From: Agaricus subrufescens
Taxonomy: Eukaryota > Basidiomycota > Agaricomycetes > Agaricales > Agaricaceae
Assembly: GCA_029945375.1 (NCBI GenBank)
Contig: CM057060.1
Coordinates: 2,914,001 to 2,978,000 of the forward strand
Reading direction: 5' to 3'
Length of the DNA stretch: 64,000 bases
Shown here: one piece after another, positions 117 to 37,787 of the stretch
How positions within the stretch are numbered: position 1 is the first letter of the stretch
Layout of the letters: the number at the start of each line of letters is the position of its first letter
Notes under the pieces: model-generated
Told to the model about the DNA's origin: nothing
Databases searched by the model: none
The model's input: only the letters and a program-made list of their open reading frames with translations
Position numbers and translations under genes: made by a program

Positions 117-2445
117 ATGCTTCTTGACCGCTTCTCGCGTTTCTTTCACAAGTCGAAAAAATATCGAAAGGATGATACGTCGCCTAACATTGCGGTCAAG
201 GATCAAGCTGCAGGTGAGCGGACCAGTTATTGATAGCCATCGAAAGTACCTCACTCTGTTTCAAGGGACGGGCTGTGGGATGTTCACCAATGCTACTGAT
301 GTCACAGTAAATGGTGGTACCCTGGTTAATGGCCCCACGACTTATAACACATTCAATTCGGGAGCAGGAGGTATGTGATCAGACCTCTATAACCGCTCAT
401 CATTGCCTCACTATTCCTGATCGATGCGCTTCATCAGTCTTGCAATTTATGCTCCCTCACATATGTACTGATGCTACCACCGATGCACTTGTACGAAGCC
501 CACCTCCTAGATGTCTTCCTGGAACTCGCGAGCGAATCCTGAAGATTTTGAACGAGTGGCTAATCAATTATCTTTGGATGATTGTTTGGCTCAGCGGTCC
601 TGCTGGTGCTGGAAAGTCGGCTGTTGCGCAGACCTTTGCTGAAGAGTGCGCTAAGCGAAATCGTCTTGGAGCGGCATATTTTTTCATTCGATCATCGCAG
701 AGCCATCATCCTCGAACTCTCATTCCAACCCTCGCATATCAACTCGCGGTCAATGTTCCTGGATATAAGAATATCCTTGGGCATGCAATCTTCGAGGACC
801 CTTCTATCTTCGACAAAGCGCTTCAAGTACAAATGCAGAGACTCATCGTCGAGCCCTTCACAACTTTACAGGTGCAGAAGCCCGAAATAGCTGAAAAACC
901 TTTCTTTATTATCATAGACGGACTGGATGAATGCAAAGGCGAGGAAGCACAATGCGAGATCGTCGAGATGATTGGAGAAGTAGTTCGACTGAAAAAGGAC
1001 CTTCCTCTTCGCTGGTTGATCATCAGTCGCCCCGAGTTCCACCTACAGTACACGTTCTCTCAACCAGACCTTGCCATCGACTATCATAAAGAAGTATTAC
1101 TGATCGATGCGGACACGATAAGAGATGTCAACCTCTACCTCCGATATACTCTAGAGAACATTCGGATCAAATCCTTGATTAAGGCCCCTTGGCCTCCCGA
1201 GTTGGATATGCGGAGGCTGGAGGGCATTGCCTCGGGACTGTTTATTCTTGCGGCCACTATTGTTCGCTATGTCTCCGACGTCAAATATAGAAACCCCCAG
1301 CGACGCCTTCAAGATTTCTTTGCATTCATGGATCATGAAGATCGTGCTACTACGACAAACCCTCTTGAGACTCTTGACCAGCTCTATTCTCAAATTCTAT
1401 CTGAAATACCCGCCGATGTTTATCCAATAACGAAGCGCATACTGGCTTTTCAGGCTCGTAACACCATCAACACACGCAATGTGTCCGTTCTCTGCACTCT
1501 ACTTCGCCTAGATCAAGATGTGTTTCATGATGCTGTTAAAAGTCTCCATTCGCTTTTTGATATACCTCCACGCAGTGTGAATCGTCCCATGCGGCCGCAT
1601 CATGCATCATTTAGGGATTACCTTAGGTCACAAACTCGATCTGGCGAGTTTCATCTTGGCTTTCACGATCGCGGCAAATCCTGTGCCAACGAGTTTTTGT
1701 TCTGGTACAAGACCATGCTTGAAGAACCTTGTTGGATTTCGGATGGTATATCCCTGAGGTTGCTGTGGCTTTGATTTCCGCTTACCTGACGGCTAGATTC
1801 ATTCAGTTCGATTCTAGGGTCAGTTAGGAACACCGTATTGCCTGGTGTGGTGTGGGATAGTGTACCGACATCTTATATAGTGCGAGGAGTTGTGAGTCTC
1901 TCGCTCTGGTATGGCCTTGCTGCAATGGGTGCCGACCTCAACGCGGAGCTTCTTGCCGGACTCGAGCATTTTGATTTCAGGTACATGTTGGTGAACACCA
2001 CGTATAGACACGATTTCGCCGTGTTCATATCCAATTGGGTGAGCTCTGGCTATTATTCTGTGTTGTGCCATCTAACTTATCCTTTGTAGCGCCGTCATAC
2101 TACACTCTTGCACACAGAACCGCAGGATCAACTGGAGCGGACATTGTTAGATAAGGCTGTCAGTGAAGTGAGCCGGCCTATGGAGCCTGCCATGTTTCCC
2201 ATCGGCAAGATGGACGTGAGTTTTTGATTGTTGTGTGCCTCTCATTCACTAATCGACTCACAAAGGATACTGACTCTCCGTACCGGTATGTGTTCATTGG
2301 TCATGGCATAAGATGTTGCCTGTTTTGGTTTGATGAGAAGTGTTGGTTAGGTGGGCGGTGTCGGCTTAGTTGTAAGGTGGCACCCAAAGAGATGTATGCT
2401 GTTTCCGACTGCGTTATTCACCTCCCGGAAAGGCTTTACAGATAA
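117..2445 (+). CDS. NACHT-domain STAND NTPase, paralog 1
   Basis: Predicted intracellular NLR-like NTPase of about 685 residues, complete. Exons joined by GT-AG introns: 117-213, 266-370, 438-1745, 1797-2038, 2090-2215, 2266-2445. ATG 117 is chosen because the equivalent ATG opens all seven paralogs with a 97-nt first exon. The first exon encodes a short Lys/Arg-rich head; the second a Gly/Asn/Thr-rich segment of about 35 residues. The third holds the NACHT core: Walker A GPAGAGKS near residue 121, Walker B IIIDGLDEC near 228, a SRPE sensor-like motif, and HASFRDYL after the predicted winged-helix region. No WD40, ankyrin or TPR repeats follow. Instead there is a conserved tail with FDFRYMLV, then CLFWF, GRCRL and SDCVIH near the end. 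STAND proteins switch by nucleotide-driven oligomerisation; a role in fungal non-self recognition is inference. The family call is secure, the function is not. Confidence 0.87.
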
Positions 2446-3180
2446 TTCAATTCTTTACTGCTTCATTTATTGGTGGCTTGTTTTATCTAGTAGTCTCAAT
2501 GATGATTCGGCGAAAAATAGAATACGACGCAATACAAGAATACTTGGACTTCTTGTTGCCTTGGCCAGTAGTGTTTTAGCCACCTTTAATTTGTTGTTTT
2601 GTACCAGCCTATTCAATACCTAAAGGCCGCTTATTCGTTGTGCTTGAACTGTCATCGAGGATCGCATTTGTAACTAGATGACGGGCAAGGGTGAATATTA
2701 TTATTGAGGAGTTTGCTTCATTCTACAGAGGCAATTGATAGATTGGGATGACGCTTAATTTGTAGACACCGCATCAGAGAGCTTGGCTTTGATGAACTGC
2801 ACAGACGCTTGCCAAATCGGCTTAATTAGTACGACTTGTTGGTTGATAAGCGTCGGATGTTACTTTGTGAGATGCTAATTCATGTGCTTGCAGTCCTGTT
2901 GGAAGAGAGGATATCGCATATTGAATCATGAAAATTGCGTGACGGCAGGTAGACAGATAATGCGAGCCACTGGGGCCGCAGGGGTGCTTAATGGGGCAGT
3001 CAGATGCACTATGAGAGCATGTACATGCCATGGCATTGCGCTGTAGAGACCTGTACATTCTCGGCAGTAACACAGAATGGGAACGCTCAGAGTTCAACGC
3101 ATAGATTACTATTGGACAAACAGGTGCATGCTGCATGTGACCAGGTGGCTGGAGTCAATGGCAGAGGCGTTGCCAAAGTG
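2446..3180. other. 3' flank of NACHT copy 1, no gene seen
   Basis: This is the downstream part of the duplicated unit. It is AT-rich and carries no open frame with recognisable features. Its counterpart after copy 2 is collinear with small differences, so it behaves as passive flank. Confidence 0.6.
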
Positions 3181-3836
3181 ATCCAGATCGTTCAAACCAC
3201 ACCAGGTCCAACTGCACAACCGAGGCAGCAACCATTCGGGCCACCGCAGGTGCAAGGATTCTCTGGCGCAATGCCCCTTCAAGTTACCTTCTATGGAGGA
3301 GGAACACCGTACAGTCAACCATTCATCCCTCCACAGCCTTAGTCAACATCCATGGGTGGACAGACATCACTACCGCCTCTAGGAATTGGCAGATTAGCTG
3401 CTGATTATACCCGCCTTCTGGCACATATACCCCCCTCACCAATGGGTCAAACACTGTAATTCCCCCCTCCGGATCCAGGGGTCTGGCCTGGCAGAGCGTC
3501 GTGCATAGGACATGCAGTGTGACGCTACCAGGATATGTTGTTCTGAGATGCATCAAGGAGAGGACACCATTGGAGCAGATGAACGAGCAGAAACAACGGG
3601 CACAGGAACTGCACGACGCAGAACAAACGTTGGCGAGGGAGAGACTTGAAGTTCAGAGGGCGGAGGAGAGATCAAAGGCTTCGAGTGCGAGGAGCAGTAC
3701 AAGGGGGAGCGTCTTGAGGAGTAGTCGGAGGAGTCAAACGACTTCTACTGTGTCTGGGAGCTATTCGGGAAGTGATATTGGGATTGAGGTGGAAGATGCG
3801 AGCGATGATGAATCAAGTTCGGGTCATCGATAGAAG
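3180..3836 (+). pseudogene. Degenerate gene relic between NACHT copies 1 and 2
   Basis: Open stretches interrupted by stops read like the end of a former gene. First comes a Pro/Gln-rich piece (about 3180-3342), then a short piece to about 3461. Last is a charged, probably coiled-coil piece that becomes Ser/Arg-rich and acidic and stops at 3831-3833. Part of it (about 3297-3400, around CCATTCATCCCTCCACAG) recurs in reverse orientation at about 38,040-38,140 beside NACHT copy 7. I do not recognise the parent gene. It could also be a non-coding piece of flank carried by the duplications. Confidence 0.4.
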
Positions 3837-4126: not shown

Positions 4127-6460
4127 ATGCTTCTCGACCGGTTCCTGCGTTTCCGTCACAAGTCGAAAAAACATCGAAAGGATGATACGTTGTCTAACCT
4201 TGTGGTCAAGGATCAAGCTGCGGGTGAGCAGACAGTCACTGATAGCCACCGAGAGTACCTCATGCCGTTTCAAGAGATGAGCCCTGGGATCCTCACCGGT
4301 GCTAGTGATTTCACAATAAATGGTGGCCAGTTCATTAATCACCCCAAGACTTATAACATAATCAATTCGGGAGAAGGAGGTATGTAATCAGACCTCGATC
4401 ACCACTCATCGTTATTTTACTATCCCTGACTGATGCGCTTCATCAGTCTTGCAATTTATGATCCCTCGTATATGTGGTGATGCTACCACCGATGCACTTG
4501 TGCGAAGCCCACCTCCTCGATGTCTTCCTGGAACTCGCGAGCGAATCTTGGACATTTTAAACAAGTGGCTGATCAACTATCTTTGGATGATTGTTTGGCT
4601 CAGTGGCCCTGCTGGCGCTGGAAAGTCGGCTGTCGCGCAGACCTTTGCTGAGGAGTGCGCTAAGCGAAAGCGTCTTGGAGCAGCATATTTTTTCATTCGA
4701 TCATCGAAGAGCCACCATCCTCGAACTCTCATTCCAACCCTCGCATATCAACTCGCGATTAATGTTCCCGGATATAAGGAAATCCTTGGTAATGCGATCC
4801 ACGATGACCCTTCCATCTTCGATAAAGCGCTTCAAGTACAAATGCAGAAACTCATCGTTGAGCCTTTCACGGCCTTACAGACGCAGAAGCCCAAAATAGC
4901 TCAAAATCCTTTCTTCATTATCATAGACGGGCTGGATGAATGCGAAGGCGAGGAAGTACAATGCGACATTGTCGAGATAATTGGAGAGGTGGTTCGACTG
5001 AAAAAGGACCTTCCTCTTCGCTGGTTCATCGCCAGTCGCCCCGAGTTCCACCTGCAGTACACGTTCTCTCAACCAGACCTTGCTATCGACTATCATAAAG
5101 AAGTGTTACTGATCGATGCGGACACGATAAAAGATGTCAACCTCTACCTCCGACATACTCTAGAGAACATTCGAATCAAGTCCTTGATTAAGGCATCTTG
5201 GCCTCCCGAGTTGGATATGCGGAGGCTGGAGGACATTGCCTCGGGTCTGTTTATTCTTGCGGCCACTATTGTTCGCTATGTCTCCGACGTCAAATATAGA
5301 AACCCCCAGCGGCGCCTTCGGGATTTTTTTGCATTCATGAATCGCGAAGACCGTGCTACTACGACAAACCCTCTCGATACTCTTGATCAGCTGTATTCGC
5401 AAATTCTATCTGAAATACCCAAGGATGTGTTTCCAATAACAATGCGCATATTGGCCCTTCATACCGTCGGGTTCATTGCTTCATACGATGTGTCAGTTAC
5501 TTGCACTCTACTTCGTATAGATCAAGATGAGTTTCATGACGCTGTTGAAAGGCTCCATTCACTTTTTGATATACCTCCACGCGATGTGAATCGTCCCGTG
5601 CAGCCGTATCATGCATCATTTGGAGATCACCTTAGGTTACAACACCGATCTCGCGAGTTTCATGTTAGCAATCACGATTTTGGAAAATCCTGTGCCAAAG
5701 AGTTTTTGTTCTGGTACAAGACCGTGCTCGAAGATCCTTGTTGGATTTCAGATGGTATGTCCCTGGGGTTTCTGTGGCTTTGATTTCCACTTACCGCACA
5801 CCTAGATTCATTCAGTTCAATTCTAAAGTCAGTTGGAAACACCGTATTGCCTGGTGTGGTGTGGGATAGTGTAAAGACTTCTAATATAGTGCGAAGAGTT
5901 GTAAGTTTCCTGTTCTGGAATGTCCTTGGTCAATTGGGTCTCCCCCTCAACACGGAGCTTCTTGTCGGATTCAAGGATTTCGATTTCAGGTACATCTTGG
6001 TGAGTGCCAGGGATAAACAAGCGTTCGCTCTCTTTATAAACGATTGGGTGAGCTCTGGCTACTATTTCATGTTCTGAGATCTAACTTCTACTTTGTAGCA
6101 CCGTCATACTACACTCGTGCACGTCAAACCGCAGGATCAACTGGAGGAGGCATTGTTAGGCAAGGTTCTCAGTGATGTAAGCCGGCCTATGGAGCGTGCC
6201 ATGCTTCCCATCGACTACTTGGAGACAGACGTGAGTTTTTATTTGGCGTGTGTCTCTCATCTACTAATCAACTCACAAAGCATCCTGAGCCTCCATACCA
6301 ATATGTGTTTATTGGTTGCGGCATGAGATCTTGCTTGTTTTGGTTTGATGAGAACTGTTCGTTGGCTGGGCGGTGTCGACTTCGTTGTAAGGTGGCACCC
6401 AAAAAGAGGTATCTTATTTCCGACTGCGTTATTCACTTCCCAGAAAAAATTCGTATATAA
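4127..6460 (+). CDS. NACHT-domain STAND NTPase, paralog 2
   Basis: Closest relative of paralog 1; about 687 residues, complete. Exons: 4127-4223, 4275-4379, 4447-5754, 5806-6047, 6099-6230, 6281-6460. The ATG lies in a good ACCACCATG context. Exon 3 is 1308 nt as in five other copies and contains GPAGAGKS, IIIDGLDEC and SRPE; HASFGDHL replaces the usual HASFxDYL. Exon 5 is two codons longer than in paralog 1. The tail keeps CLFWF, GRCRL and SDCVIH. Intron 1 is 51 nt without a stop, so a transcript retaining it would stay in frame and add 17 residues. No disabling change seen. Confidence 0.87.
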
Positions 6461-7512: not shown

Positions 7513-9876
7513 ATGCTTCTTGACCGGCTCTTGCGTTTCCTTCACAAGCCAAAAAAGCATGAAGAAAATGCCATACAACCCGGTGCCGCGCCTGAGGCTC
7601 CAACTATGTGTGGGTTAATCAACCCTCAATGGCTACTCAAGGGAGCTTACATACTTTCAAGATGCCGGCCATGGAATTTTTGCCAATGCTACCAATTTCA
7701 CTTTAAACAATCCCGTTATGATTGATCAGTCACAAGTGAACTATATGAGCATCCAGACAATTTACAACACAATTGTTACTGGCACAGCAGGTAGGTGAAA
7801 AATCATGAATCATAGATGATCACTCTCATCCCTTTTTCTTGACTAATCGGCCTCAATAGTTTTGGATCGTTTGCTTCCCTACACATGTCCCGATGCCGCT
7901 ACCGATGCGCTCGTACGAAGCCCCCCTCCTCGATGTCTTCCTGGCACTCGTGAGCGAACCTTGGGGATCTTGAGCAACTGGTTGATCAGTCATCTTTGGA
8001 TGATCTTTTGGATCACTGGCCCTGCTGGCGCTGGAAAGTCAGCTGTCGCGCAGAGTTTTGCTGAAAAGTGCTTTGAGCAAGGACGTCTTGGTGCGGCATA
8101 CTTCTTCATTCGATCATCACCCAGCCATCATCCGCGAACTCTCATACCAAGTCTTGCCTATCAACTTGCAGTTAATGTTCCTGGTTTCCAAAACATTCTT
8201 GGTCATGCTATTCTTCATGACCCTTCCATCTTTCACAAAGCGCTTCAGGTGCAAATACAGAAACTCATAGTGGAACCCTTCACAATTTTACAGGCCCGGA
8301 AGCCCGAGATAGCTCAAAATCCTTTTTTTATCATAATAGATGGGCTTGATGAATGCCAAGGTGTCAAAGCACAGTGCGAGATTGTCGAGATGATTGGAGA
8401 GGTAGTTCGGCTGAAAAAGGACCTTCCTCTTCGGTGGTTGATCGCAAGTCGTCCCGAGCTCCACCTCCAGTACACGTTCTCCCAACCTGATTTCGCTATC
8501 AACTATCACAGAGAATTGTTATTGATCGATGCGGATACCAAACAAGATGTCAAACTCTTCCTCTGTCACGACTTCGAAAATGTTCGCATCAAGTCCTCGA
8601 TTAAGGCGCCTTGGCCTTCCGAGGTGGACTTGCGGAGGCTGGAGGATATCGCCTCAGGTCTCTTTATTTTCGCAGCCACTATTGTTTGCTATGTCTCCGA
8701 CGTCGAATACGGAAATCCTCAGCGGCGCCTTCAGGATTTGTTTGCATTCATAGATAATGAGGACCGCACTACTACGACAAATCCTCTGGAGACCCTTGAC
8801 CAGCTCTATTCCCAGATTCTATCTGAGATACCGGAAGACGTGTATCCAATAACGAAAAGGATAATAAGCCTTCATGTTTTTGGCATGATTGCAGGCCACG
8901 CTGTGCGAACTTGCAGTTGTTTACTTCGCATAGATCCAGATGTGTTCTGTGATGCCGTTAAAAAACTCCCATCAATTTTTGCGGTCTCCACACATGATAT
9001 CGATCGCCTCATACACCCACATCATGCATCATTTCGCGAGTATATTAGGTCCCGACCTCGATCTGGCAAATTCTATATTAGTGATAACGATATCGGCAAA
9101 AGCTTATCCAAGGACTTTTTGTTCTGGTACAAGACCATGATGAAGGACCCTCGATGGATTTCAGATGGTAAGTCCGTGGTTTGCTGTGGTTTGACTTTCC
9201 CCTCACCGGACACCTAGATTCATACAACTCAATTCTAGAGTCAGCTAGAAATACCGTATTGCCTGGTGTGATAGGGGATAACATACTGACGTCTCATGTC
9301 ATTCGAAGAGCTGTAAGCGACTTGCTCTGGACTTCCCTTGCTGCAATGCACTCCGAACTCAGCGCAGGCCTTTTTGATGGACTCGAAGATTTCGATTTCA
9401 GGTATATGTTGGTGAGCAAGCTGGGCATGCAAAGCTTCTCCGTCATCGCACAATGTTGGGTTAGTTCTAACCATCATTTAATATCGCTAAATCTGATTTC
9501 CAATTTGTAGAGCCCTCATACTGACCTTGTACACACCACACCGCACGATAAACTGGAGGAGACTTTGTTGGATAAGGCTGTCAGTGAGGTGGGCCGGCCT
9601 ATGGAACCTGCCGTATTCCCTATTGCCACGATGGGCGTGAGTGATTTACTTGTCATATATTTTTCAATCACTAATCGATCTACAAAGAATTCCAATTGTC
9701 CGTACCGGTATATCTTCATTGGTCACGGTATCCGATGTTGCCTGTTTTGGTTTGATGAAAAATGTGAGTTGAGTGGACGATGTCGACTGAGCTGTAAGGT
9801 GCCACCCAAAGAGATGTATGTTGTTTCCGACTGTGTCATTCACCTCCCGGAGTTAGTTACCGTTGGTTTTGTGTAA
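7513..9876 (+). CDS. NACHT-domain STAND NTPase, paralog 3
   Basis: About 696 residues, complete. Exons: 7513-7609, 7662-7790, 7860-9167, 9218-9459, 9511-9636, 9688-9876. ATG 7513 lies in CCACCATG. The apparent frame break after codon 32 is resolved by a 52-nt intron. The exon-2 segment is longer than in copies 1 and 2 and resembles copies 4 and 6 (NATNFTLNN, then an IYNTI stretch). NACHT motifs GPAGAGKS, IIIDGLDEC and SRPE are present. The tail keeps CLFWF, GRCRL and SDCVIH and ends with a short hydrophobic extension (VTVGFV). No defect seen. Confidence 0.86.
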
Positions 9877-10384: not shown

Positions 10385-12757
10385 ATGATCCTCGAGCGGA
10401 TCTCGCGTATCTTCCATAGATCGAAAAAACAACAACAGGATGATACACCATCCAACAGTGTATTGGAGGCTCGAACTGCAGGTGGGCGAAGCTATCATCA
10501 ATGACCGCCCACGGGAGCTTACTCGGTTTGGAGATGCTGGTCATGGAATGTTCGCTAATGCTAGTAATTGCACACTAAACAATGCTATTATGATTGATCA
10601 ACCACAAATGAGCATCCAGACGATTTACAACACGATAATCACTGGAGTCGCAGGTGTGTGATCATTGCTCGATCATCGCATCAGTCCTCGCTTTATTACC
10701 GTTCCATCAGCTAACAAATATCGCCAGTTTTGGATCGTTTATTCCCTCATACATGTCCTGATGCCTCTGCCGATTCGAGCGTACGAAGTCCTCCTCCTCG
10801 ATGTCTTCCTGGCACTCGTGAACGAATCTTGGAGATTTTGAATAACTGGTTAATCGATCATCTTTGGAGGATGTTCTGGCTTACCGGCCCGGCTGGTGCC
10901 GGAAAGTCGGCTGTTGCGCAGACTTTTTCTGAGATTTGTGCCGAAAAAGGTCGCCTTGGGGCGGCATACTTCTTCATTCGATCATCACCCAGCCACAATC
11001 CTCGGACTCTCATACCAAGTCTTGCGTATCAACTCGCGGTTAATATACCTGATTTTCAAAATGTCCTTGGACACGCGATTCTTCAGGACCCTTCCATCTT
11101 TCATAAATCTCTTCGCGTACAACTGCAGAAACTCATTGTCGAACCCTTCACCATTTTGCTACAGCGAAGGCCCGAGATATGCCAGAACCCTCTTTTCATC
11201 ATAATCGACGGACTAGATGAATGCCAAGGCATGGTAGTACAGTGCGAGATTGTTGAGGTTGTCGCAGAAGTGATTCGACTGAAGAAGAACCTTCCTCTTT
11301 GTTGGTTGATCGCGAGTCGCCCCGAGCTTCACCTACAGTATATCTTCTCTCAGCCCGACTTTGCTGTCGACTGTTACAAGGAAGTACTACCCATTGATGC
11401 AGACACCAGAAAGGACGTCAATCTCTACCTCCGGCACGCTTTTGAAAACATGCGAACCAAATCCTCAATCAAAACACCTTGGCCTTCAGAGGGAGATTTG
11501 CGGAGGTTGGAGAACATTGCCTCAGGCCTCTTTATCCTCGCAGCCACCATTGTTCGCTACGTCTCTGACATTGAATATAGTGATCCCCAGCGGCGGCTTA
11601 CAGATTTCTTTGCATTCCTGGCTAATGAGGACCGTGCCACTACGACAAACCCTCTCGAAACTCTCGATCAGCTCTATTCCCAAATTCTATCTGAAATACC
11701 CGTGGACGTGTATCCAATAACGAAGCGCATACTGGCTCTTCATACCCTTGGCCTGATCGCTGAATACGATGTGCCAGTTTGCTGCAATTTACTTCGCATA
11801 GACGTAGATGTGTTTTATGACGCTGTAAGAAAGCTCCATTCGCTTTTTGATATACCTCCACGCAATGTCAATCAGCCCATGCATCCACATCATGCATCGT
11901 TTGGTGATTATCTACAGTCCCGACCTCGATCTGGCAAATTTCATATCAGCACTCACTATGCTTGTACGAGCATGTCTAAGGAATTTCTTTTCTGGTACAA
12001 GACCATGCTCGAGGACTCTCACTGGGTTTCGGATGGTACGTGTACAAGAACGTATATCGTGGCTTTAATTTACGCTTACCTGACAACTAGATTCATTCAA
12101 GGCAATTGCCAAGGCCACTAGCAAAATTGCATTGCCTGGTGTGGTGTGTTGCGGCGTACAGGCATCTCTGATAATTCGCGTGTCTGTATCCGTCATATTC
12201 TGGGATATCGTTGCTGAATTGTATGGCCAATTCAGCCCGGAGCTTCTGCGTGAACTCGAGGATTTTGATTTCAGGTACATGTTAGTGAGTGAGAGGGACG
12301 ACGGAGGTTTCTCCCGCTTTGCGAGCTCTTAGGTTCGTTCTTGTTATTCTTTGTTCAAGTCGTTAGATCTAATTTCGAACTCGTAGGCCCCCCATACTGC
12401 TCTTGTGCACACAAAACCACAAGATCAATCAGAAAAGACATTGTTAGATAAGGTTTTTAGTGAGATGGACCGGCCTATGGAACCTGCCATATTTCCAATG
12501 GTCAACATGGACGTAAGTGGTTTACTAGTCTCAGTGTTTCTCTCATTTTGTCAGCTTCTCTATAGGATTCCAAATCTCCCTATCGGTATATCTTCATTGG
12601 CCACAGCATCCGATCTTGTCTGTTTTGGTTCAATGAGGACTGTTATCTAAGTGGGCGGTGTCGACTCAGCTGCAAGGTGCCAGACAAAGAGGCATATGTT
12701 ACTTCCGAATGTGTCATTCACCTCCCGGAGAGAATTTACCTTGCTAAGCTTTTGTAG
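10385..12757 (+). pseudogene. NACHT STAND NTPase, paralog 4, nonsense in exon 4
   Basis: Same six-exon plan: 10385-10481, 10534-10653, 10728-12035, 12091-12332, 12387-12512, 12566-12757. Exons 1-3 are intact, with GPAGAGKS, IIIDGLDEC, SRPE and HASFGDYL. The last codon of exon 4, TGG in the other six copies, is TAG here (12330-12332), directly before the splice donor. Everything after it, including both introns and the CLFWF, GRCRL and SECVIH tail, is still open and well conserved, so the change is probably recent. As written the product stops at about 588 residues and lacks the Cys-containing tail. It could be a young pseudogene, a functional truncation, or a sequencing error. Confidence 0.8.
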
Positions 12758-13310: not shown

Positions 13311-15670
13311 ATGATACTTGAATGGTTTTTACGCTTCCTCCCCAATGAGTCCAAGCTGAAAGATGGACATACACGATCCCCTACAGTCTCTGAAATTCAA
13401 CCTACAGGTGGGAAGATCACTTTTGTAGCCACCAGGGGAGCTCATGCTTGGAAAGATGCCAATGGATTTTTTAACCAAGCCAATAATTTCACCATAAATG
13501 GCGCTAATATGTTCGATCGTCCTCAAATCTTCCAAACGATCCATAACACAATAACCGCTGGAACGGCAGGTGTGTGATTAATCATCCTTCGTTCCTTTGA
13601 TTCTTTCCAATGTTTGAGATTAATACGCTTCGGTAGCTTTAGATCGTTTGTTTCCCTATACATGTCCTGATGCCGCTGTCGATTCAAGTGCACGACATCC
13701 TCCCCCTCGGTGTCATCCTGGCACTCGTCAACGGATCTTGAATACTTTGGAGGACTGGCTCATAAATCATCTCTGGAAACTGATTTGGCTTAGTGGACCA
13801 GCTGGCACCGGAAAGTCGGCCGTCGCACAAACCTTTGCTGAGATATGCGCTGAACAAGGTCATCTTGGAGCCGCATACTTTTTCTTTCGATCATCGAGTC
13901 GCGATGATCCTCGAACACTCATACCGAGTCTCGCGTATCAACTCGCGGTCAATGTTCCCGATTATGGCAACCTCCTTGGGCATGCCATCGCTCGTGACCC
14001 TGCTATCTTCCAGAAAACTCTTCGTGTACAAATGCGGAGACTTATCGTCGAACCCTTTACGATTTTGCAGGCCCAGAGGCACGGGATAACTCAAGATTCT
14101 TTTCTGATCATACTGGACGGACTAGACGAGTGCCAAGGCATCGAAGCTCAGTGCGAGGTCGTCGAGATGATTGGAGAAATAGTTCGTTTGCAAAAAGACC
14201 TTCCTCTCCTCTGGCTTATCGCAAGTCGCCCTGAACCTCACTTACGATACATCTTCTCTCGAGCAGATTTTTCTATTGATTGCAGAAAGGAGGTGCTTTT
14301 AATTGATGCGGGCACAAGAGATGATGTCAATCGCTACTTGCGGGACAATTTTGCTGACATCCGAACAAGATTCCCGCTTGTGACTGACGTCACTTGGCCC
14401 CCTGAAGTGCATTTGCAGAATGTAGAAGAAATTGCTTCAGGTCTATTTGCCCTTGCAGCTACCATTATTCACTACGTCTCGGACGCCGCATATGGGGACC
14501 CTGTTGGACGCTTGGCAGAGTTTTTTGCATTCACAGGAAACATCATTCACGTTACAACGACAAACCCCCTTCAAACTCTCGATCTACTATATTCCCGAAT
14601 CTTGTCTGAAATCCCGGAAAACGTTTACTTAGTGACGAAACGAATTCTAGCATTTTACTTTGTCATGTTCAACGGCCATTTATCCGTACAACTCGGTTGC
14701 AACCTCCTTCGTATTGACAAACATGAGTTTTATAATGCTCTAAGCAAGCTTCATTCGCTCTTTGATATACCTACACCCGAGGCCGCTGCAAAGTCAAAAT
14801 TGACTATGCACCATGCGTCTTTTGGTGACTATCTTCGGTCCCCTTTTCGATCTGGTCGGTTCCATATCCGCGGCAGCGATTATCTGATCGACTGCCTTGA
14901 AACGTTTCTCTATTGGTATAAAAATATTCTTGAAGATCCTCATTATGTTTCTGATGGTGTGTACATATGCCAACGTTCGGAACTGATGCTGATCAGTCAG
15001 TCAGATTCATTCCGGATGATCCATCAATCAACCGTGTTGCCTGGACTAAAGTGGACTTCAAATGACCATGATAATGACCTAGCAATATCTCAAGCCATCA
15101 TAACAATCACATCCGATATGATTTGGTCGACATTTCTCGTATTATCCTATGACCACGCAGAAGGAATTCTTAGTCAGCTTGAGAGTTTCGATTTCAGATA
15201 CATGTTAGTGAGCAAGGATGATGAAGGGAGGTTTGCCAGATTCGTCGAATGGGTATTCTCTTGGGTTAGTTTTGGTTCTTCTTTACTGAGACAGTATCCC
15301 TGTTCTTATCTCAATGTTGCAGGGAACCCGTAATATACTGGTACGTACCGAAGCACAGGATAATATAGACAAGACGTTGTTAGATAAGGCTATGCAAGAG
15401 GTGGCCTGGCAGATGCAACCAGCAGTCTTTCCTCTTATGATGATCGTGAGTACTTTATTTCAGCGCGATGTGCACACCGAGTAATCAGCCCTTGAGAGCT
15501 CTGAATCACCATACCGGTATCTCTTTCTTGGTCATGTTGGCAGTATGCGAACGTGTTTATTCTGGTTCAACGAGGCATGCGACTTGGTCGGTCGATGTAG
15601 ACTTAGCTGTAGAGCGTTATTAAAAGAGGAGTATGATGTTTCCGACTGTATCATCCACCACCCCGAATAA
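13311..15670 (+). CDS. NACHT-domain STAND NTPase, paralog 5 (divergent)
   Basis: The most divergent copy, about 695 residues, complete. Exons: 13311-13407, 13456-13569, 13637-14956, 15005-15264, 15323-15445, 15497-15670. Walker A is GPAGTGKS, Walker B IILDGLDEC, followed by SRPE and HASFGDYL. Exon 3 is 12 nt longer and exon 4 is 18 nt longer than in most paralogs. Introns 1 and 3 are both 48 nt with no stop, so the frame can be read through them. The tail is kept as CLFWF, GRCRL and SDCIIH, so the four cysteines and the histidine are ancient within the family. Its promoter block is not recognisably shared. It is the natural outgroup for the array. Confidence 0.85.
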
Positions 15671-20084: not shown

Positions 20085-21104
20085 TCAATTTGGGGGATGG
20101 GTTTGTTCGAGTGCCCCTCCATCCCTCTCCCCCTGGTCAGACGAGACCTTGGGGTTGAGCAAAGCTGGATGCGTTCTGATATATATGTGGAATGCCTCGG
20201 AGGACCACCGCCCCAAAGCTTGGATCACGTCGAATGATACCCCATTCCTTGCCAACAGCGTAGCGCCTCCCGCCCGCATGGAATGTCCACCAAACTGGGA
20301 ATCGAAATGCAAGTAGAAACGGGTCAGGAACCAGTTCCTCGTCGGCGGTTTCCCTGAACTTGTCACCCACAACCATGGTACATTTTCGAAACGTGTGTCC
20401 CGCAACTGTATATATGATCGTAAGGCGGTATAAGGGCTGTTAGGACAATTGTTGTCCCTTAGCAAAACCTGGTTACCAGCAAAGAAACGGTCCGTTTTGC
20501 TAGCTGGCAAGATAAAGGACACTTTGCAGTTCTCGAATCGAAGCGAGTCCCGTCGGATGGTTTTGCGGTGGTTGATGAGTCTCGTGTCGTTCGGGTCCGC
20601 CATCTCGCCTAGCCTCAGTAGTCCAAAAAATCCTACTATGATCATGGCACGGAAAAGAAAATTGTCGTATGACGGAAATTTGTTGTAGTGTTTCGCGATG
20701 GTATCGAGTTGTTTGAAAGAGATGGGTTCTTTTCTATGTATCAGCTTGCCGTGCAGTCTCTTCATTGACTTCACCAGGTCTTTGATGCATGAACTGTTCC
20801 TTATTCCGATGACCTCCGGGTATAGAGGTCTCAGCTTAAAGCACACACCGGACAAGTAGGAATCGAGTGAGTTTGGTGATATATGGTGACACATGAACGC
20901 GATGTATCGTTCAAAGGTCAAGATGGTTGGAGTTATTGGGACGTGATGGGTCTCGCAAAAAGCGAGGTAACTTGTGTATTGTGATTCGTATGATTGTCGA
21001 GTCGACTTATCTATTGTGTGCGCCAGCGCTTCCGCCACCTCTGCATCGAGCTGGTCTAGGCTAATCGGTGGCCTATTCCAGCTCCTACCCGCCGTCCGAC
21101 TCAT
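20085..21104 (-). CDS. Tyrosine recombinase of DIRS-like element
   Basis: 339 residues, intact. This enzyme would integrate the circular cDNA without producing target-site duplications. The catalytic set is visible: Arg164 in LLRLGE, His274 and Arg277 in HSMRAGG, Trp300 at the second-histidine position in LGRWSS, and nucleophile candidate Tyr308 in HIYIRTHP. The N-terminal part resembles a core-binding domain (TYxSYLAFC-like helix). Its ATG overlaps the stop of the upstream RT frame (ATGA), which suggests termination-reinitiation of translation. Confidence 0.88.
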   Translation of the reverse strand: MSRTAGRSWNRPPISLDQLDAEVAEALAHTIDKSTRQSYESQYTSYLAFCETHHVPITPTILTFERYIAFMCHHISPNSLDSYLSGVCFKLRPLYPEVIGIRNSSCIKDLVKSMKRLHGKLIHRKEPISFKQLDTIAKHYNKFPSYDNFLFRAMIIVGFFGLLRLGEMADPNDTRLINHRKTIRRDSLRFENCKVSFILPASKTDRFFAGNQVLLRDNNCPNSPYTALRSYIQLRDTRFENVPWLWVTSSGKPPTRNWFLTRFYLHFDSQFGGHSMRAGGATLLARNGVSFDVIQALGRWSSEAFHIYIRTHPALLNPKVSSDQGERDGGALEQTHPPN

Positions 21105-24100
21105 TTTTCTGCCTCCCCCAGCGCATCTCGAGGGGGTGATAAGGGATTTATTATGATTCCCGGAATCAATTTACTGGCCTTCTCCAAATCTCTGCGCGAG
21201 AGCGCATCCGCTACCTGGTTTTCTGTACCTGGGACGTGTAGTACGCGGAGTTGGCATCGTGACTTTATCAATAAGTCCACTGAAAATCGGAGCATCGGAT
21301 TGTAAACTGGATGGACGGCTAGGGTATTGAATGCGTCGACGCAGTTTGAATTGTCTGTGTAAATGACGATCTGATCGTCCTCCAGCCCCCACTTCTCAAC
21401 ACAATAATGTAGAGTGGTTACTACACACCACAGCTCCCGGTAGTATATCCATTCGCTAGGAAGTTCCTCGTCGATCCGGGACCAGAAACCCAAACAGGAA
21501 TCCGGGATAAACACCCCCAATCCCGTCAGGCATGCGTCTGCATAGACCGTGATCACCGCCGGGTCATCTACTTCCCAGTCTCTCGCCGAGAGAAGCAAGA
21601 TTCCTTCCATCCTCTGTAGGTGCCCCCGTGCCCACTCTAAATCATCGCTCATCGCCCGCGTGGATCTCGTTCGTTTGACAGACCCCGTCTTTTCCCGGAT
21701 CCTTGCGTAAACGTTACACAACGCTGGTCGTAGGAGTGGGAAGACATTGAGTGCCCAATTCATCCAACCGGCCAGCTTTTGTAGTTCTCGTGTCGTGAAC
21801 CTGTTCGCCTTCTTCCCTTTCACAAAAATATATCGACCTAGCTCCTCAACCAACTCGTCCTTCTTTTCCTTGGGTAATGTGAACGTCAAATCTCTCGAAT
21901 TCACTTCTATTCCCAAAATCGTCAAGACGGTTCCATGCTGTTGCTTGTGCAGTTTATAAGGTATGCCGAGCTCGTCCCAGAGTCTCAACATTCTAGCCTG
22001 GTCCACCGGCACATCCCTGCCCAGGGGTGAATAATATACCTTCTCGGTGCCAATCTGCACCGCGAAGCAGTCGTCCACAAAACCATTTGGGCTTGGCACG
22101 TTTCTTCGATTTTGCGCGATCCACAGAACCAAACTCATGAAAGAGATGAAGATGTCCCCAGACCGTCGTCCCCCAAAGGCTACACACTGATCGATATGTC
22201 GGATGCCATCAATAGTGTTCACCTGGCGAATTTGCCACTCTGGTGACACGGGGAGCAGTCGATATGCCTCTGAGACGTCGCTCTTCCACAATAACACGTC
22301 CTGTGTGAAATTAAGGTCCCGCCGCGCCCTCAGGAGTTGATCCCCAAGCCGGGCTAAACTGTCCATCGGGAACGCTCGCTCATGTGGAGGGGTCATGGAA
22401 TTCAGAGAATGGGTTCCAAAACTCTGGTGAGTCACTAGTCGAAAAGCGTTAGGCTCTGCCTTCAGTACCGTGAAGATAGGCATGCAATACATGCCTGGTA
22501 GAAGGTCCCCACCGAAACCAGTTGAGAACCTCCCCATAGCGACTTCCTTGTCCCTCTGTTCCCTCAGAAAAGAGGCCATCTCCTCTGTTTTTGGTGGCGC
22601 CTGCGCCTGGTCATTCGTCTCTGGATACCCCGCTAGGTCAAGTGTGGCCCATGGCCAGAAACCTTTCTCCAGGCCCTCGCATACGGAATTAGCAAAGTTC
22701 GGATTGGGATGACCTCTCAGTAACGAGCGGAAAACGGATACTCGTATTGGCGTGACTATCCGGAATAAGTCAGGGCGGTCACGCAAGGTTTGATTGATCA
22801 CATGTGTCTCTCCCAACTCTGGCGGTCTCGGCAAAACCTCTGCCCTTTCCGACCACTCTACCGCGCCCGGTATGGGTCCCCCTTCCACGTCCCACCGGTT
22901 ATAGCGTAGGTACTTGGGCTTTAGGCCCCTTCCCCTCAGGCTTGTTTTTGGTGCAGTTTGACTGACCGTGATCGGTTCCTTTGCAGGCTCGGCATTTGTG
23001 TTCGTATATGCAATCGGAGAGTGGGCATCCTTTCTGCCCGTTAAACCGATTGCATAGTCCCCTTCTACCGTCGCGACTTGCGCTGGCAAACTCTGCTCCA
23101 GTGGAAGAGAGGATAACGTCGTCGAATTCGGCGTGGATCTCGGAGTCGAGGAGGGAACTGTTTTCTCCCCCTCCAACGGTTTCCCGGATGGCCTCGTCAT
23201 AGAGGATGACTTGGGGATGGTATGTGGGGTGTTTCCACTGGAACTTTCGTAACATAAAAGCTGCATATGCGGCGAGTTCGTATTCGCGGTGCGGAAAGAC
23301 AAAAGCCGTTGCTGCAGAGGCTGCCTGCCACGCGACTTGCCATTGCCCGGCGTTCTCGATTTTCTTACTTCTTTCTTTTCCGGGGAAACGGACCTCGATT
23401 CCTCCAACAGTGCCCACATTCTCTTGCACAGGCCGCGATATGAACTGCGAGGCGAGGACCTTCCCGAGGTCGACGGCTCTTCCTCTGATGACGTTGGCCC
23501 ATTCTGAATCAGGGAAATGTTTTGGACTACCATCGGCTGATCAGGCCCACTGCACGGCTGTGGTGATGTCGTCTCGCAAATATTGGAAGATGTCTCTCGT
23601 CTTCTGTTGGTCGACCATCCTCCGCTTCCGATTCTTTCTTCCAAGGTTAAACCACGGGCAGCGATCCTCCCAGAGAATGCGCCCGACTCTTCCCTCTCGC
23701 TCTCCTCGTCCTCTCTCTTCTCCCCAATCCGATCCAGCAACCTCGGCTTCTTTGCCGGCCTCTCCTCCTCAAATTCCGTTGAACCCCGCTTCGACGTTTC
23801 TTCTCCTCCGATCCGCGAGAGTAAGGGCGCCGTCGAAGTCAACGGATAGAGTATCTCGCTCGAGCTCGGATAGTTCTCCGACCCCGCTGAGGTAAGTGTC
23901 CGCTCTTCTCTTGATCCGGATACGAGAAACAATTCCTCTTTCATATTCCTCGATGGCTTCCAGCAGGGTGGGATGTAGACTAAGGCTCCGCTCGACCACC
24001 GGCGGCGACGTGTTGGCAGTTCCCGAGCGGGTCCCGAGTGTTGCCGTATCGCGTGGGGGAAGTGGTCGAGAAGGTCGTCCAACCCCTCCAACAACTGGTG

Positions 24101-24196
24101 GATTTGGAGAGGAGGATCGGGTTCTGTTTCCGGCGACTGCTCGTTCCTCTCCGAAACCAACCAAGACTCTAGTGCTCTCGACTTCTCTGGGCTCAT
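21101..24196 (-). CDS. Reverse transcriptase/RNase H frame of DIRS-like element
   Basis: One open frame of 1031 codons. The enzyme part starts at roughly residue 430. RT motifs include SDVSEAYRLLPVSPEW, an AFGGRRSG stretch typical of DIRS RTs, and FVDD as the catalytic box. RNase H follows with VYADACLTGLGV, YYRELWCVV, YTDNSNCVDAF and NQVADALSRRDL. The first 400 codons overlap the gag region. The part up to about residue 175 (RPAKKPRLLDRIG) looks like gag N-terminus in this frame; the rest of that stretch is probably only open because it overlaps. The true RT start is uncertain. Confidence 0.85.
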   Translation of the reverse strand: MSPEKSRALESWLVSERNEQSPETEPDPPLQIHQLLEGLDDLLDHFPHAIRQHSGPARELPTRRRRWSSGALVYIPPCWKPSRNMKEELFLVSGSREERTLTSAGSENYPSSSEILYPLTSTAPLLSRIGGEETSKRGSTEFEEERPAKKPRLLDRIGEKREDEESEREESGAFSGRIAARGLTLEERIGSGGWSTNRRRETSSNICETTSPQPCSGPDQPMVVQNISLIQNGPTSSEEEPSTSGRSSPRSSYRGLCKRMWALLEESRSVSPEKKEVRKSRTPGNGKSRGRQPLQQRLLSFRTANTNSPHMQLLCYESSSGNTPHTIPKSSSMTRPSGKPLEGEKTVPSSTPRSTPNSTTLSSLPLEQSLPAQVATVEGDYAIGLTGRKDAHSPIAYTNTNAEPAKEPITVSQTAPKTSLRGRGLKPKYLRYNRWDVEGGPIPGAVEWSERAEVLPRPPELGETHVINQTLRDRPDLFRIVTPIRVSVFRSLLRGHPNPNFANSVCEGLEKGFWPWATLDLAGYPETNDQAQAPPKTEEMASFLREQRDKEVAMGRFSTGFGGDLLPGMYCMPIFTVLKAEPNAFRLVTHQSFGTHSLNSMTPPHERAFPMDSLARLGDQLLRARRDLNFTQDVLLWKSDVSEAYRLLPVSPEWQIRQVNTIDGIRHIDQCVAFGGRRSGDIFISFMSLVLWIAQNRRNVPSPNGFVDDCFAVQIGTEKVYYSPLGRDVPVDQARMLRLWDELGIPYKLHKQQHGTVLTILGIEVNSRDLTFTLPKEKKDELVEELGRYIFVKGKKANRFTTRELQKLAGWMNWALNVFPLLRPALCNVYARIREKTGSVKRTRSTRAMSDDLEWARGHLQRMEGILLLSARDWEVDDPAVITVYADACLTGLGVFIPDSCLGFWSRIDEELPSEWIYYRELWCVVTTLHYCVEKWGLEDDQIVIYTDNSNCVDAFNTLAVHPVYNPMLRFSVDLLIKSRCQLRVLHVPGTENQVADALSRRDLEKASKLIPGIIINPLSPPRDALGEAEK
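22899..24196 (-). pseudogene. Broken gag-like region of DIRS-like element
   Basis: Gag-like sequence is spread over two frames. An N-terminal part ends near 23,690 in the frame of the RT. The continuation (WEDRCPWF, then TRDIFQYLRDD, HFPDSEWANVI and the C-terminal Cys/His knuckle CRACKGTDHGQSNC) is in the frame ending at 22899. That second frame has an in-frame TGA at 23541-23543, between VQWA and SADGSPK. A TGA at 23769-23771 also closes the same frame further upstream. So at least one frame change and one stop interrupt gag, while RT and recombinase stay open. Programmed frameshifting could explain the first but not the second. Confidence 0.6.
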
Positions 24197-24266
24197 TGCT
24201 CATAATAATCTGACACCTGAAAGCAAGTAAGAACGGACGTTGCGATAGCGCTAGGACGTATATAGT

Positions 24267-31928: not shown

Positions 31929-34320
31929 TCACATAAAAGAAGATTGTTGGTAAGAAACCACAACATTATCCCCAAGACTCTCTGGTAGGTGAATGACACA
32001 ATCAGAAACAGCATAAATCTCTTTGACAGGCACCGTGCAACGAAGTCGGCATCGCCCGTTCAAAACTCGTTTTTCGTCAAACCAAAATAGGCAAGATCGG
32101 ACACCTCGACCAATGAAGGCATACAAGTACGGAGGTTTGGAATTCTTCGAAAACAATCACTAAATGAGGGATCCATGGGATGTAGAACGACTCACGACCT
32201 TCTTGACCGTAGGATATAAAGCAGGCTCCATATGCCGATCCACTTCATGGGTGACCTTATCCAACAATATCTCTTCCAGTTGACTACGTGGATTGGGATG
32301 CAAAAGAGTAGTATGAGGAGCCTACAGGGTTTAAATTAGATCCGACGACAATCATTAAAAATAACCAGAACTAACCCAGGATTTGATGAAGTGGAAAAAA
32401 TATCCTCGGTCCAAGTGGTCCACTAACATGTACCTGAAATCGAATTTCTCGAGTTCTTCAAGCAACACCGCGGAAAATGGAGACCTCAAACGATAAGCAA
32501 ACACAATCCACGACATACTGCATGCAATCAGTCGAATGCTGTGAGAGACCCATTCCCCATCATGCATAACACCTGGCAAAGGCGTATTTACCGCCGACTT
32601 TAGGATTGCAGCGAATGAATCTGATTGTCCGGTAAACAAGATTACGGTCACGATACGCATTTTCTATAGACTTACCATCAGAAACCCAACGAGAATCCTC
32701 GAGCATAATGTTGTACCAGAACAAACACTCCTTTGATAGGCAATTACCAACATAGACCTCGTCAATATGAAATTTGCCGGATCGGGATTGTGACTGAAGA
32801 TATTCACTAAATGACGCATGGTGCGCGCACATAACTCCATCTACATCTCGTGGAGGTATATCAAAAAGCTTCATTCGCTTTTTGATAGCGTTACGAAACG
32901 TGTTTTGGTCCATGCGAAGGAGATTGTAGCAAAATGACACTGTAGCGGAGTTGAATTTGACATAGGAGTGAAGAGCTAATATGCGCTTTGTTGTCGGATA
33001 GATATCCTCAGGTATTTCCGAGAGTATTTGGGCGTAAAGATGGTCGAGAGTCTGGAGAGGGTTTGTCGTAATGTCGCGCCTTTTCTGAGACATGAATGCA
33101 AAAAAGTCTGTAAGGCGCCGCTCAGGATCACCATATTCGACGTCGGAGACGTAACGAACAATAGTGGTTGCGAGGATGAAGAGACCTGAGGAGATGTTCT
33201 CCAGCTTTCGCATTTCCACCTCGGAAGGCCAAGGTGCCTTAATCGAAGACTTGAGTCGAATTTTTTCGAAGTAGTGCTGGAGGTAGAGATTAACGTCTTT
33301 TTTGGTGTCGGCGTCGATTAGTAGTATTTCTTTGTGATAGTCGATAGCAAAATCTGGTTGAGAGAAGGTATACTGCAGATAAAATTCGGGGCGACTCGCG
33401 ATCAACCAACGAAGAGGAAGGCCTTTTTTCAGTCGAACCACCTCTCCAATCATCTCTACAATTTCACACTGTGCTTCGATGCCTTCGCATTCATCCAGTC
33501 CATCTATTACGATATAAAAAGGTTTTTGAGCTATCTCGGGTGTCCGGTCTTGTAAAAGGGCGAAGGGCTCGACAATGAGTTTTTGTAGCTGTACGCGAAG
33601 CGCTTTGTGAAAGATAGAGGGGTCCTGAAACACCGCGTGTCCAAGGACATTTTGAAAATCAAGTATATTAACGGCGAGTTGATACGCAAGACTTGGTATA
33701 AGAGTTCGAGGATTGCGGCTGGGTGAAGACCGAACGAAGAAGTATGCCGCCCCAAGACACCCTTGTTCAGCACACTTCTCAGCAAAAGTCTGCCCAACGG
33801 CCGACTTTCCGGCACCAGCTGGGCCGGTGAGCCAAAATATCATCCAAAGATGATTGATTAGCCAGTTGTTCAAAATATCCAAGATTCGCTTGCGGGTGCC
33901 AGGAAGACATCGAGGAGGGGGGCTTCGTACACCCGAATCAGCGGCAGCATCAGGACATATATGAGGGAGTAAACGATCCAAAACTGTTGAAGTGCGTTAT
34001 TCGGGAAGACTGGATTGCAGCGATGGTGCATGATTGATCACTTGCCTGCCGCTCCAGTAAGTATCGTGTTGTAGATCATCTGAATACTCATGGCGTTCAC
34101 TTGTGGCTGGTCAATCATAATAGCATTGTTTAGCGTGCAATTGGTAGCATTGGCAAGAATACCATTGCTGGCATCTTGAAACGGCGTGAGCTCTCCTGGA
34201 TGGTCGATGGTCGATTCGCCCACCTACGGTTCGAGCCTCCGACACACTGTTCGACGGTACACCGTCCTTCTCATCACTTTTCAGGTTATGAAAGAAACGC
34301 GAGATCCGCTCGAGGATCAT
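31929..34320 (-). CDS. NACHT-domain STAND NTPase, paralog 6
   Basis: About 706 residues, complete, reverse strand. Exons: 34320-34224, 34174-34046, 33983-32676, 32620-32376, 32321-32196, 32144-31929. Intron 2 starts with GC (CAG|GCAAGT), a known minor donor; all other introns are GT-AG. Motifs: GPAGAGKS, VIDGLDEC, SRPE, HASFSEYL. The tail keeps CLFWF, GRCRL and SDCVIH, though a non-invariant Cys just after CLFWF is Arg here. It ends in a longer C-terminal extension (about 20 residues beyond LPE). The N-terminal segment is most like copy 4 (NATNCTLNN). Promoter block present upstream. Confidence 0.86.
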
Positions 34321-34380: not shown

Positions 34381-34415
34381 GTCACAGCGCTTGAGCGATA
34401 TATGCTTAGGCTTGC
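34381..34415 (-). promoter_or_regulatory. Core promoter block of NACHT copy 6
   Basis: On the - strand this reads GCAAGCCTAAGCATATATCG followed by CTCAAGCGCTGTGAC, the same block as in the + strand copies, about 60 bases before ATG 34320. Confidence 0.55.
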
Positions 34416-35447: not shown

Positions 35448-37787
35448 TCAATCATCCATGACACCAATATCTTCCGGGAAATGAATCACACAGTCGGAAA
35501 GAGCATACGTCTCTTTGGGTGCCACCTTACAACTAAGTCGACACCGCCCAAGTAACCAACGCGTCTCATCAAACCAAAACAGGCAAGATCTCATGCCATG
35601 ACCAATGAACACATATCGGTACGGAGAATCAGGATCCTTTGTGAGTTAATGAGTGAATGAGAGACATACGACAAGTAAAAACTCACGTCCGTCTCGTCGA
35701 TGGGAAACATAGCGGGCTCCATTGACCGGCTCACCTCACTGATAGCCTTACCTAACAATGTCTGCTCCAGTTGATCCCGCGGTTCGGTATGCAAGAGTGT
35801 AGTATGAGGGCGCTACAAGCAGAGGTTAAATCTCACAATATGAAATAATAGCCAGAACGCACCCAATTGGTTATAAACAGGGAGAAACGTTGTGCATCCG
35901 ACACAGCCACCAACATGTACCTGAAATCGAAAACCTCGAGTCCACCAAGAAGCTCCGTGTTGAGGTCGGTACCCATGGTAGCAAGGATAACCCAGAGCCA
36001 GCTACTTACAAGCCATCGAATGGCATGGGATGTCTCAGCACTACCCCACACCACATCACGCAATGTTGTGTTTCTAGCTGACATTAGAATTGAGCTGAAT
36101 GAATCTAGGTGTTCGGTAAGCAGAAATCGAAATCACGGCAACCCGAGGGACACACAATCTGATATCCAACAAGGATCTTCGAGCATGGTCTTGTACCAGA
36201 ATAAAAACTCGTTGGCGCAGGATTTGCAGAAATTGTGAAAGCCAACATAAAACTCGCCAGATCGAGGTTGGGACCTAAGATAATCTCTAAATGATGTATG
36301 ATGCGGCCGCATGGGACGATTCACATCGCGTGGAGGTATATCAAAAAGCGAATGGAGTCTTTTAACAGCGTCGTGAAACACATCTTGATCTATGCGAAGT
36401 AGGGTACTGCTAACTGACACATCGTGTCTGGCGACGAAGTCGACGGCATGAAGGGCCAATATGCGCTTCGTTATTGGATACATATCCTTGGGTGTTTCAG
36501 ATAGAATCTGCGAAAAGAGCTGATCAAGAGTCTCGAGAGGGTTTGTCGTAGTAGTACGATCTTCATGATCCATGAATGCAAAGAAATCTCGAAGGCGCCG
36601 CTGAGGATTTCTATATTCAACATCGGAGACGTAGCGAACGATAGTGGCCGCAAGAATAAACAGACCCGAGGCAATGTCCTCCAGCCTCCGCATATCCGCC
36701 TCGGAAGGCCAAGGCGCCTTAATTGAGGACTTGATTCGAATTTTCTGTAAAGCATGCCCGAGATAGAGGTTGACATCTTTTATCGTGTCCGCATCAATCA
36801 GTAATACTTCTTGATGATAATCAATAGCAAGGTCTGGCTGAGAGAATGTGTACTGGAGGTGGAACTCGGGGCGACTCGCAATCAACCAGCGCAGAGGGAG
36901 GTCCTTTTTCAATCGAACCACCTCTCCAATCATCTCGACAATGTCGCATTGTGCTCCGATGCCATCGCATTCATCCAGTCCGTCTATGATAATAAAGAAA
37001 GGATTCTGAGCTACCACCGACTTCTGGGTTTGTAAAGTCGTGAAGGGCTCGACAATGAGTTTCTGCATTTGTACTTGAAGTGCTTTGTGGAAGATAGAAG
37101 GGTCGTCGAAGATCGCATGCCCAAGGATATTCTTATATCCGGGAACATTGATCGCGAGTTGATATGCGAGGGTTGGAATGAGAGTTCGAGGATGGTGGCT
37201 CTTCGACGATCGAATGAAGAAATATGCCGCTCCAAGACACTGTCGCTTAGTACACTCCTCAACAAAGGTCTGTGCGACTGCCGACTTTCCAGCACCAGCT
37301 GGCCCACTGAGCCAAACAATCATCCACAGATAGTTGATCAACCACTTGTTCAAAATCTCCAAGATTTGCTCACGAGTTCCAGGAAGACATCGAGGAGGTG
37401 GGCTTCGTACAAGTGCATCAGTAGTAGCATCAGCACATATATGAGGGAGTAAGGATTGCAAGACTGTTGAAGCGCACCGGTCGGGAATAGTAAGATAACG
37501 ATGAGCGGTGATCGAGGTCTGATCACATACCTCCTGCTCCCGAAATAATTGTGTTATAAGTTGTTTGGGAGCGATCAATCATGTTGGCAGTATGGATCGT
37601 AAAATTTGAAGCACCCGTGAAACATCCATGGCTAACATCTTGAGACTGCATGAGCTCCATTGTGTCGGTATTGGGAGTTGATCCATCTACCTGTAGCTAG
37701 AGCCCCAAGTGCCGCGCCAGGCTGAATACCGTCCTTTCCAAGTTTTTTTGGCCTGTGAAGAAAACGCGAGAGCCGATCGAGAAGCAT
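35448..37787 (-). CDS. NACHT-domain STAND NTPase, paralog 7
   Basis: About 689 residues, complete, reverse strand; closest to copies 1 and 2 in the NACHT exon. Exons: 37787-37691, 37638-37531, 37463-36156, 36104-35863, 35812-35687, 35636-35448. Motifs: GPAGAGKS, IIIDGLDEC, SRPE, HTSFRDYL (Thr for the usual Ala). The exon 3/4 junction codon is T+AT (Tyr), where the other copies have G+AT (Asp). The tail keeps CLFWF, GRCRL and SDCVIH; a non-invariant Cys is Arg, as in copy 6. No defect seen. Confidence 0.86.

Follow-up and report, generated by a model that had tools for sequence, protein, structure and literature searches.

Basidiomycete NOD-like receptors (NLRs) are numerous, and the roles of their N- and C-termini are mostly unannotated in the parts of two surveys used here (PMC9815663; PMC4986451). 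A locus of Agaricus subrufescens raises the question of what such receptors sense and signal with. The window, the whole 64,000-nucleotide stretch analysed (C4:2914001–2978000 in a genome of 44.65 Mb and 44 contigs; C4 is CM057060.1), carries seven NACHT paralogs (copies 1 to 7; g1 to g7), which a first-pass annotation described as a seven-member, repeat-free family with a different sensor or effector arrangement and an actively diversifying array. We find an ordinary fungal NLR expansion together with a novel linkage between NLRs and genes of the DUF6699 (PF20415) family. The reading that we favour, with a probability of about 0.5, is an Agaricaceae-type NACHT array with DUF6699 as an N-terminal module in cis and in trans. 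The linkage suggests that DUF6699 is a partner or sensor of fungal immune receptors that has not been described before; in the full text of 5.39 million open papers, neither DUF6699 nor PF20415 occurs (0 papers each).

DUF6699 genes and remnants lie beside receptors of the youngest clade

In a tree of exon 3, the youngest clade comprises g1, g2, g7 and two copies outside the window, n8 and n9 (support 100/99). A DUF6699 gene or remnant is found directly upstream and on the same strand in all five of these members, one of the five being intact. Most of these links lie outside the window, as do the best DUF6699 copies, which were not visible in the first pass. The copy before n8 is intact in the parts that were read, with a stop approximately 290 bp before the ATG, and the copy before n9 is broken. 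Sequence comparison places the broken copy of g1 just outside the window (approximately C4:2912274–2913825), again with a stop approximately 290 bp before the ATG, and its 3' flank at positions 1–116 (+) of the window. The gap between g1 and g2 holds a remnant at 3193–3833 (+), which lacks the domain core and consists of a proline/glycine-rich exon piece (3193–3486) and a C-terminal piece (3492–3833) with 71% and 96% identity, respectively, to the intact gene before n8. Weakest among the five is the trace upstream of g7, a short fragment of the proline/glycine-rich exon at 38026–38198 (−; 77% DNA identity over 108 bp, E = 2.8e-16; 52% at the protein level, E = 6.6e-5).

A genome-wide search for the DUF6699 family gave 23 matches. 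Among the 17 candidates scored, every DUF6699 locus at least 46% identical to that of a tenth relative, n10 (described below), lies at an NLR of this family. NACHT was present in all three regions of the family, and in none of six fetched regions that cover eight of the remaining 18 matches. Five DUF6699 matches are clustered at C9:2270085–2294284, with no NACHT gene in the parts fetched (four of the five). The loci C5:2966704–2968759 and C8:748235–750290 form a pair with identical scores and two DUF6699 matches each.

A predicted fused member and its junction

The tenth relative, n10, lies at C10:2254071–2257650. An exon 1 was not found in this gene, and of exon 2 just the second half remains, with half of the N-terminal motif gone. 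An open DUF6699 sequence replaces the missing parts and runs in frame through the remainder of exon 2 to the donor; the join to exon 3 is as in the other members, placing DUF6699 (E = 4.2e-27), NPHP3_N and NACHT in one predicted protein. The DUF6699 sequence is preceded by a proline/glycine-rich exon, and in our reading an intron with a GTGAGT donor and an AG acceptor would yield GQHYGPVL, near the GPHYGPVL of A. bisporus P0143.

The same junction occurs elsewhere. P0142, a DUF6699 protein of Joint Genome Institute (JGI) source and probably of metagenomic origin, ends in TTIHNTIINHEVAGM, and the junction of n10 is TTIHNTIISHEVAG; after this point P0142 reads into an apparent intron donor. P0142 is a diverged relative (78% identity) that keeps the n10 junction in open form, and the fusion is therefore probably older than a species split. 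P0006 is an 88% relative of the NACHT of n10. The longest contig of P0142 has 6609 bases, equal to that of P0006, and from this equal size alone we infer that both lie on one contig.

The fused DUF6699 of n10 and the intact separate copy of n8 differ with a nonsynonymous divergence (dN) of 0.14 and a synonymous divergence (dS) of 1.45, which is near saturation. The ratio (ω) is 0.10, a pairwise value that is not assignable to one branch; had the fused copy drifted freely for half of that time, the ratio should be higher than 0.10. The dS between the NLRs of n8 and n10 is 1.14, which, set beside 1.45 for DUF6699, is consistent with the two having been copied together.

A 99.8% identical inverted copy of n10 is present on C2. 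The surrounding regions (C2 approximately 3652800–3814300; C10 approximately 2200000–2362300) align over 19.8 kb at 99.8% in inverted orientation, a probe taken at C10:2200000 finds a 100% match on C2 and a third collinear pair lies approximately 160 kb further on. The pair represents either a large duplication of recent date or the retention of a second nuclear haplotype in the assembly, and the two copies of n10 may therefore be one gene. The C5/C8 pair is perhaps a duplication of the same kind.

Module, passenger or decoy

Under the favoured reading, the array would be a birth-and-death cluster of Agaricaceae-type NACHT (STAND/NLR) receptors. The tail would keep the receptor off and bind the ligand, NACHT would oligomerise on ATP and the clustered N-termini would signal; ordinary members would use an amyloid-like motif for this, and the fused branch DUF6699 itself. 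The link between DUF6699 and NLR would be ancient, and DUF6699 would represent a new N-terminal module for signalling or bait, with fused (cis) and separate neighbouring (trans) forms. The two forms make it a concrete candidate partner in mushrooms. We put forward more tentatively the broader proposal that DUF6699 and NACHT constitute an ancient two-gene immune cassette, a new class of NLR partner that works in cis and in trans, signals or baits without a shared amyloid motif and goes with a lineage-specific repeat-free sensor.

Several observations weigh against the favoured reading. There is no DUF6699 trace at g3 to g6 (none of four, out of the seven window NLRs), and four of the five copies that adjoin NLRs of the youngest clade are broken or reduced, which is what a passenger would show. 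For n8 and g1 the divergences do not match (dS of 0.09 for DUF6699 and 0.22 for NLR exon 3); because these values differ, conversion or separate histories are possible. A database search that covered approximately 263–836 residues gave no full-length fused protein; the n10 product would exceed this range. A comparison of nine NLR N-termini with four DUF6699 sequences gave no convincing common stretch (best E = 0.15), and templating of the HET-S/NWD2 kind is therefore not indicated. The structure model of DUF6699 is weak, with a predicted local distance difference test (pLDDT) score of 67, and no PDB entry matches it significantly.

The same separate copies could be passengers: a conserved gene that stood by the founding NLR would have been carried along in its tandem duplications and then decayed, and the C10 fusion would be a chance deletion product without a special role. 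By Pfam, all 15 DUF6699 protein-search matches carry PF20415 alone and 14 of the 15 are without an NLR piece (alignment A5), so that DUF6699 also exists apart from NLRs in Agaricomycetes; the intact copy before n8 resembles a free-standing ortholog (69% identity to A. bisporus P0143). However, the fused DUF6699 has stayed intact while most unfused duplicates decayed, it differs from the intact separate copy with the low ω given above and its junction is also open in the diverged P0142. The separate copies are accounted for equally well by a passenger origin with one later fusion; the intact fused copy is accounted for less well. We regard the passenger explanation as possible but less likely than the favoured reading.

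A third explanation takes DUF6699 as a host protein that intruders or rival nuclei target; the receptor would carry the fused copy as bait, and the separate gene would be the guarded protein. A conserved host gene (alignment A5) that is fused to an NLR and kept linked resembles the plant NLRs with integrated domains. In n10, however, the fusion occupies the N-terminal slot, which is usually the signalling side in fungal NLRs, at the cost of exon 1 and part of the N-terminal motif. We consider such an integrated decoy unlikely.

Domain architecture

Both PF05729 and PF24883 score above the cut-off in all seven window proteins (for copy 4 the scan covered the part before its stop). Each of the seven contains the P-loop GPAG[AT]GKSAV and the Walker B-like acidic stretch DGLDEC, and helical and winged-helix parts follow the nucleotide-binding domain (NBD). 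Over the same scanned proteins no Pfam repeat family was found at E ≤ 0.1, including WD40, ANK and TPR, and a self-comparison of the g7 tail gave no internal repeat. The C-terminal region is compact and repeat-free (approximately 180–220 residues). The absence of C-terminal repeats proposed in the first-pass annotation is thus borne out. Its treatment as unusual is not, since a Pfam match C-terminal to the nucleotide-binding oligomerization domain (NOD) was present in only 52% of fungal NLRs in the sections of PMC4986451 used here. Nor is the tail private to the family: NACHT paralogs of Macrolepiota, Leucocoprinus and A. bisporus have it too. Among named proteins, the closest to the NACHT proteins of the window come from Agaricus, Leucocoprinus and Macrolepiota.

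The structure model of P0022, an A. bisporus relative, has a pLDDT of 87 and a predicted template modelling score (pTM) of 0.84. Residues 105–479 match AAA+/STAND ATPases, with a best Z score of 15.4 for archaeal Cdc6/Orc1 and scores of at most 14.0 for plant resistosomes, and the tail is modelled as a non-repeat, mostly helical domain. Being compact and conserved, the tail is a definable candidate sensor domain. At the other end, the N-terminus before exon 3 is short (approximately 70–80 residues), and the motif [FL]..A.[ND].T[ILV][NH] is present in exon 2 of all seven window copies. A looser pattern, taken from the window copies and relatives, occurs before the P-loop in 41 of 87 usable homologs; after the P-loop it has eight matches in 65,930 residues. 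The public models of P0003, P0004, P0013 and P0015 stop at the last intron, and their final exon was probably missed through annotation.

Divergence and age of the array

Pooled over nine genes (36 pairs), ω is 0.20 for the NBD, 0.33 for the rest of exon 3, 0.43 for exons 1–2, 0.44 for exon 5, 0.29 for exon 6 and 0.33 for the whole gene. Exon 4 is the least constrained stretch (0.67; 95% interval 0.50–0.87), and its ω exceeded that of the NBD in 2000 of 2000 resamplings and that of the rest of exon 3 in 1999 of 2000. This pattern may reflect relaxed constraint or a recognition surface under diversifying selection, both of which it fits alike.

The locus could also be read as a recognition array that is actively diversifying and has a sensor of its own, with DUF6699 irrelevant. 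The peak of ω in exon 4 agrees with this idea, as do the next-highest value at the N-terminus, which ties with that of exon 5, dN > dS in six of the 36 pairs for exon 4 alone and the tandem and inverted arrangement of the copies. However, the tail is shared beyond the family, no segment has a pooled ω above 1 and DUF6699 traces accompany every youngest-clade member. We judge this explanation improbable. Divergence overall is purifying. The active diversification claimed in the first pass is not shown by the whole-gene values, with dN > dS in none of the 36 pairs and even the youngest pairs separated by a dS of approximately 0.21–0.22. Because dS between copies spans 0.21 to 1.49, the array is layered in age and not freshly amplified.

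The tree of exon 3 places n10 with P0006 (100/100) as the nearest branch to a set of g3, g4, g6, two JGI-source proteins and the youngest clade, and the whole group of 12 rows is supported at 100/100. Copy g5 falls with P0010 (99/98); its grouping with three A. bisporus proteins is less sure (86/98). For comparison, 16 of 272 NLR clusters in Sordariales (ascomycetes) consist of paralogous copies, and clusters there have at most five genes, in the part of PMC12258605 used.

Gene models and layout

The gene models were rebuilt from DNA by splice sites, and the exon joins are predicted. They reproduce the arrangement first described: five copies on the + strand and two on the − strand share one six-exon plan, with an exon 1 of 97 nt and intron phases of 1,1,1,0,0 in all seven. 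Exon 3 measures 1308 nt in six copies and 1320 nt in copy 5; exon 4 measures 242 nt in five copies, 260 nt in copy 5 and 245 nt in copy 6. The modelled introns are GT–AG in 34 of 35 cases and GC–AG in one (copy 6, intron 2). In copy 4 the final codon of exon 4 is an in-frame TAG, which leaves six of the seven frames intact, as first reported.

Copy g1 (117–2445, +; 685 residues) has exons at 117–213, 266–370, 438–1745, 1797–2038, 2090–2215 and 2266–2445. Those of g2 (4127–6460, +; 687 residues) lie at 4127–4223, 4275–4379, 4447–5754, 5806–6047, 6099–6230 and 6281–6460, and those of g3 (7513–9876, +; 696 residues) at 7513–7609, 7662–7790, 7860–9167, 9218–9459, 9511–9636 and 9688–9876. The exons of g4 (10385–12757, +) are 10385–10481, 10534–10653, 10728–12035, 12091–12332, 12387–12512 and 12566–12757, the TAG being at 12330–12332; g5 (13311–15670, +; 695 residues) has 13311–13407, 13456–13569, 13637–14956, 15005–15264, 15323–15445 and 15497–15670. 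On the − strand, in sense order, g6 (31929–34320; 706 residues) comprises 34320–34224, 34174–34046, 33983–32676, 32620–32376, 32321–32196 and 32144–31929, and g7 (35448–37787; 689 residues) comprises 37787–37691, 37638–37531, 37463–36156, 36104–35863, 35812–35687 and 35636–35448. Between 31929 and 37787, g7 and g6 repeat on the − strand the type order of g2 and g3 on the + strand, as if by inverted duplication of a two-gene block; g6 is not firmly paired with g3 in the tree.

The count of seven holds within the window and does not hold as the family size. An eighth copy, n8 (+), lies just upstream (ATG at C4:2909164, last exon from 2911317), a ninth, n9 (−; exon 3 of 1278 nt), lies 73 kb away (ATG at C4:2841132) and n10 lies on C10/C2. 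Both n8 and n9 have a first exon of 97 nt and all six exons in the order of the window copies, and the array therefore extends beyond the left edge of the window. A genome search for NACHT gave at least 88 matches, all above the cut-off, 88 of 712 first-look candidates having been scored. Taken together, the first-pass annotation was right in its observation and half right in its reading.

Between g5 and g6 lies a mobile-element-like unit (20085–24199, −). Its 361-residue open reading frame (ORF) has a weak Phage_integrase (tyrosine recombinase) match below the cut-off (E = 0.0016) and near-identical copies on C12 and C6 (99% and 96%); the adjoining 1032-residue ORF is without a Pfam match. 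Two ORFs similar to UvrD_C helicase occupy 17202–18278 (−) in the array gap. To the right of the array, from approximately 43.7 kb, follow the ordinary genes PER1, histone deacetylase, Ada3 and RPA34.

Comparison with known systems

The array resembles the fungal NLRs with ANK, WD40 or TPR repeats in its NACHT core and in paralog expansion, but its tail is compact and repeat-free, as in the approximately half of fungal NLRs without an annotated C-terminus (PMC4986451, in the sections used). It also resembles the Agaricomycete NACHT NLRs with the amyloid-like motifs NLR05, NLR08, NLR22, NLR29 and NLR44, which likewise have a short N-terminus, many paralogs per genome and a conserved N-terminal motif. 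The motif of the array may well be one of these, judging from the published descriptions. PMC9815663 lists no genomic-neighbour matches for the five motifs, and the array motif is similarly without a match in its DUF6699 neighbour. DUF676 is the only DUF in the main text of that source, so a link or fusion with DUF6699 is not described there by that name.

In the STAND/effector pairs of the HET-S/NWD2 type (PMC3321046, in part), the partner adjoins the NLR gene and the same domain is also found fused to NOD. DUF6699 is arranged likewise, with a predicted cis form in the n10 gene model and the P0142 junction; in contrast to HET-S/NWD2, no shared amyloid-like motif was found between DUF6699 and the NLR. 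The order of parts in the array recurs in P0003, P0013, P0017, P0022 and P0028 from A. bisporus, Macrolepiota and Leucocoprinus, which are 34–52% identical to g7, and P0017, P0022 and P0028 share the tail end [FIL][IL]GHG.K with the array.

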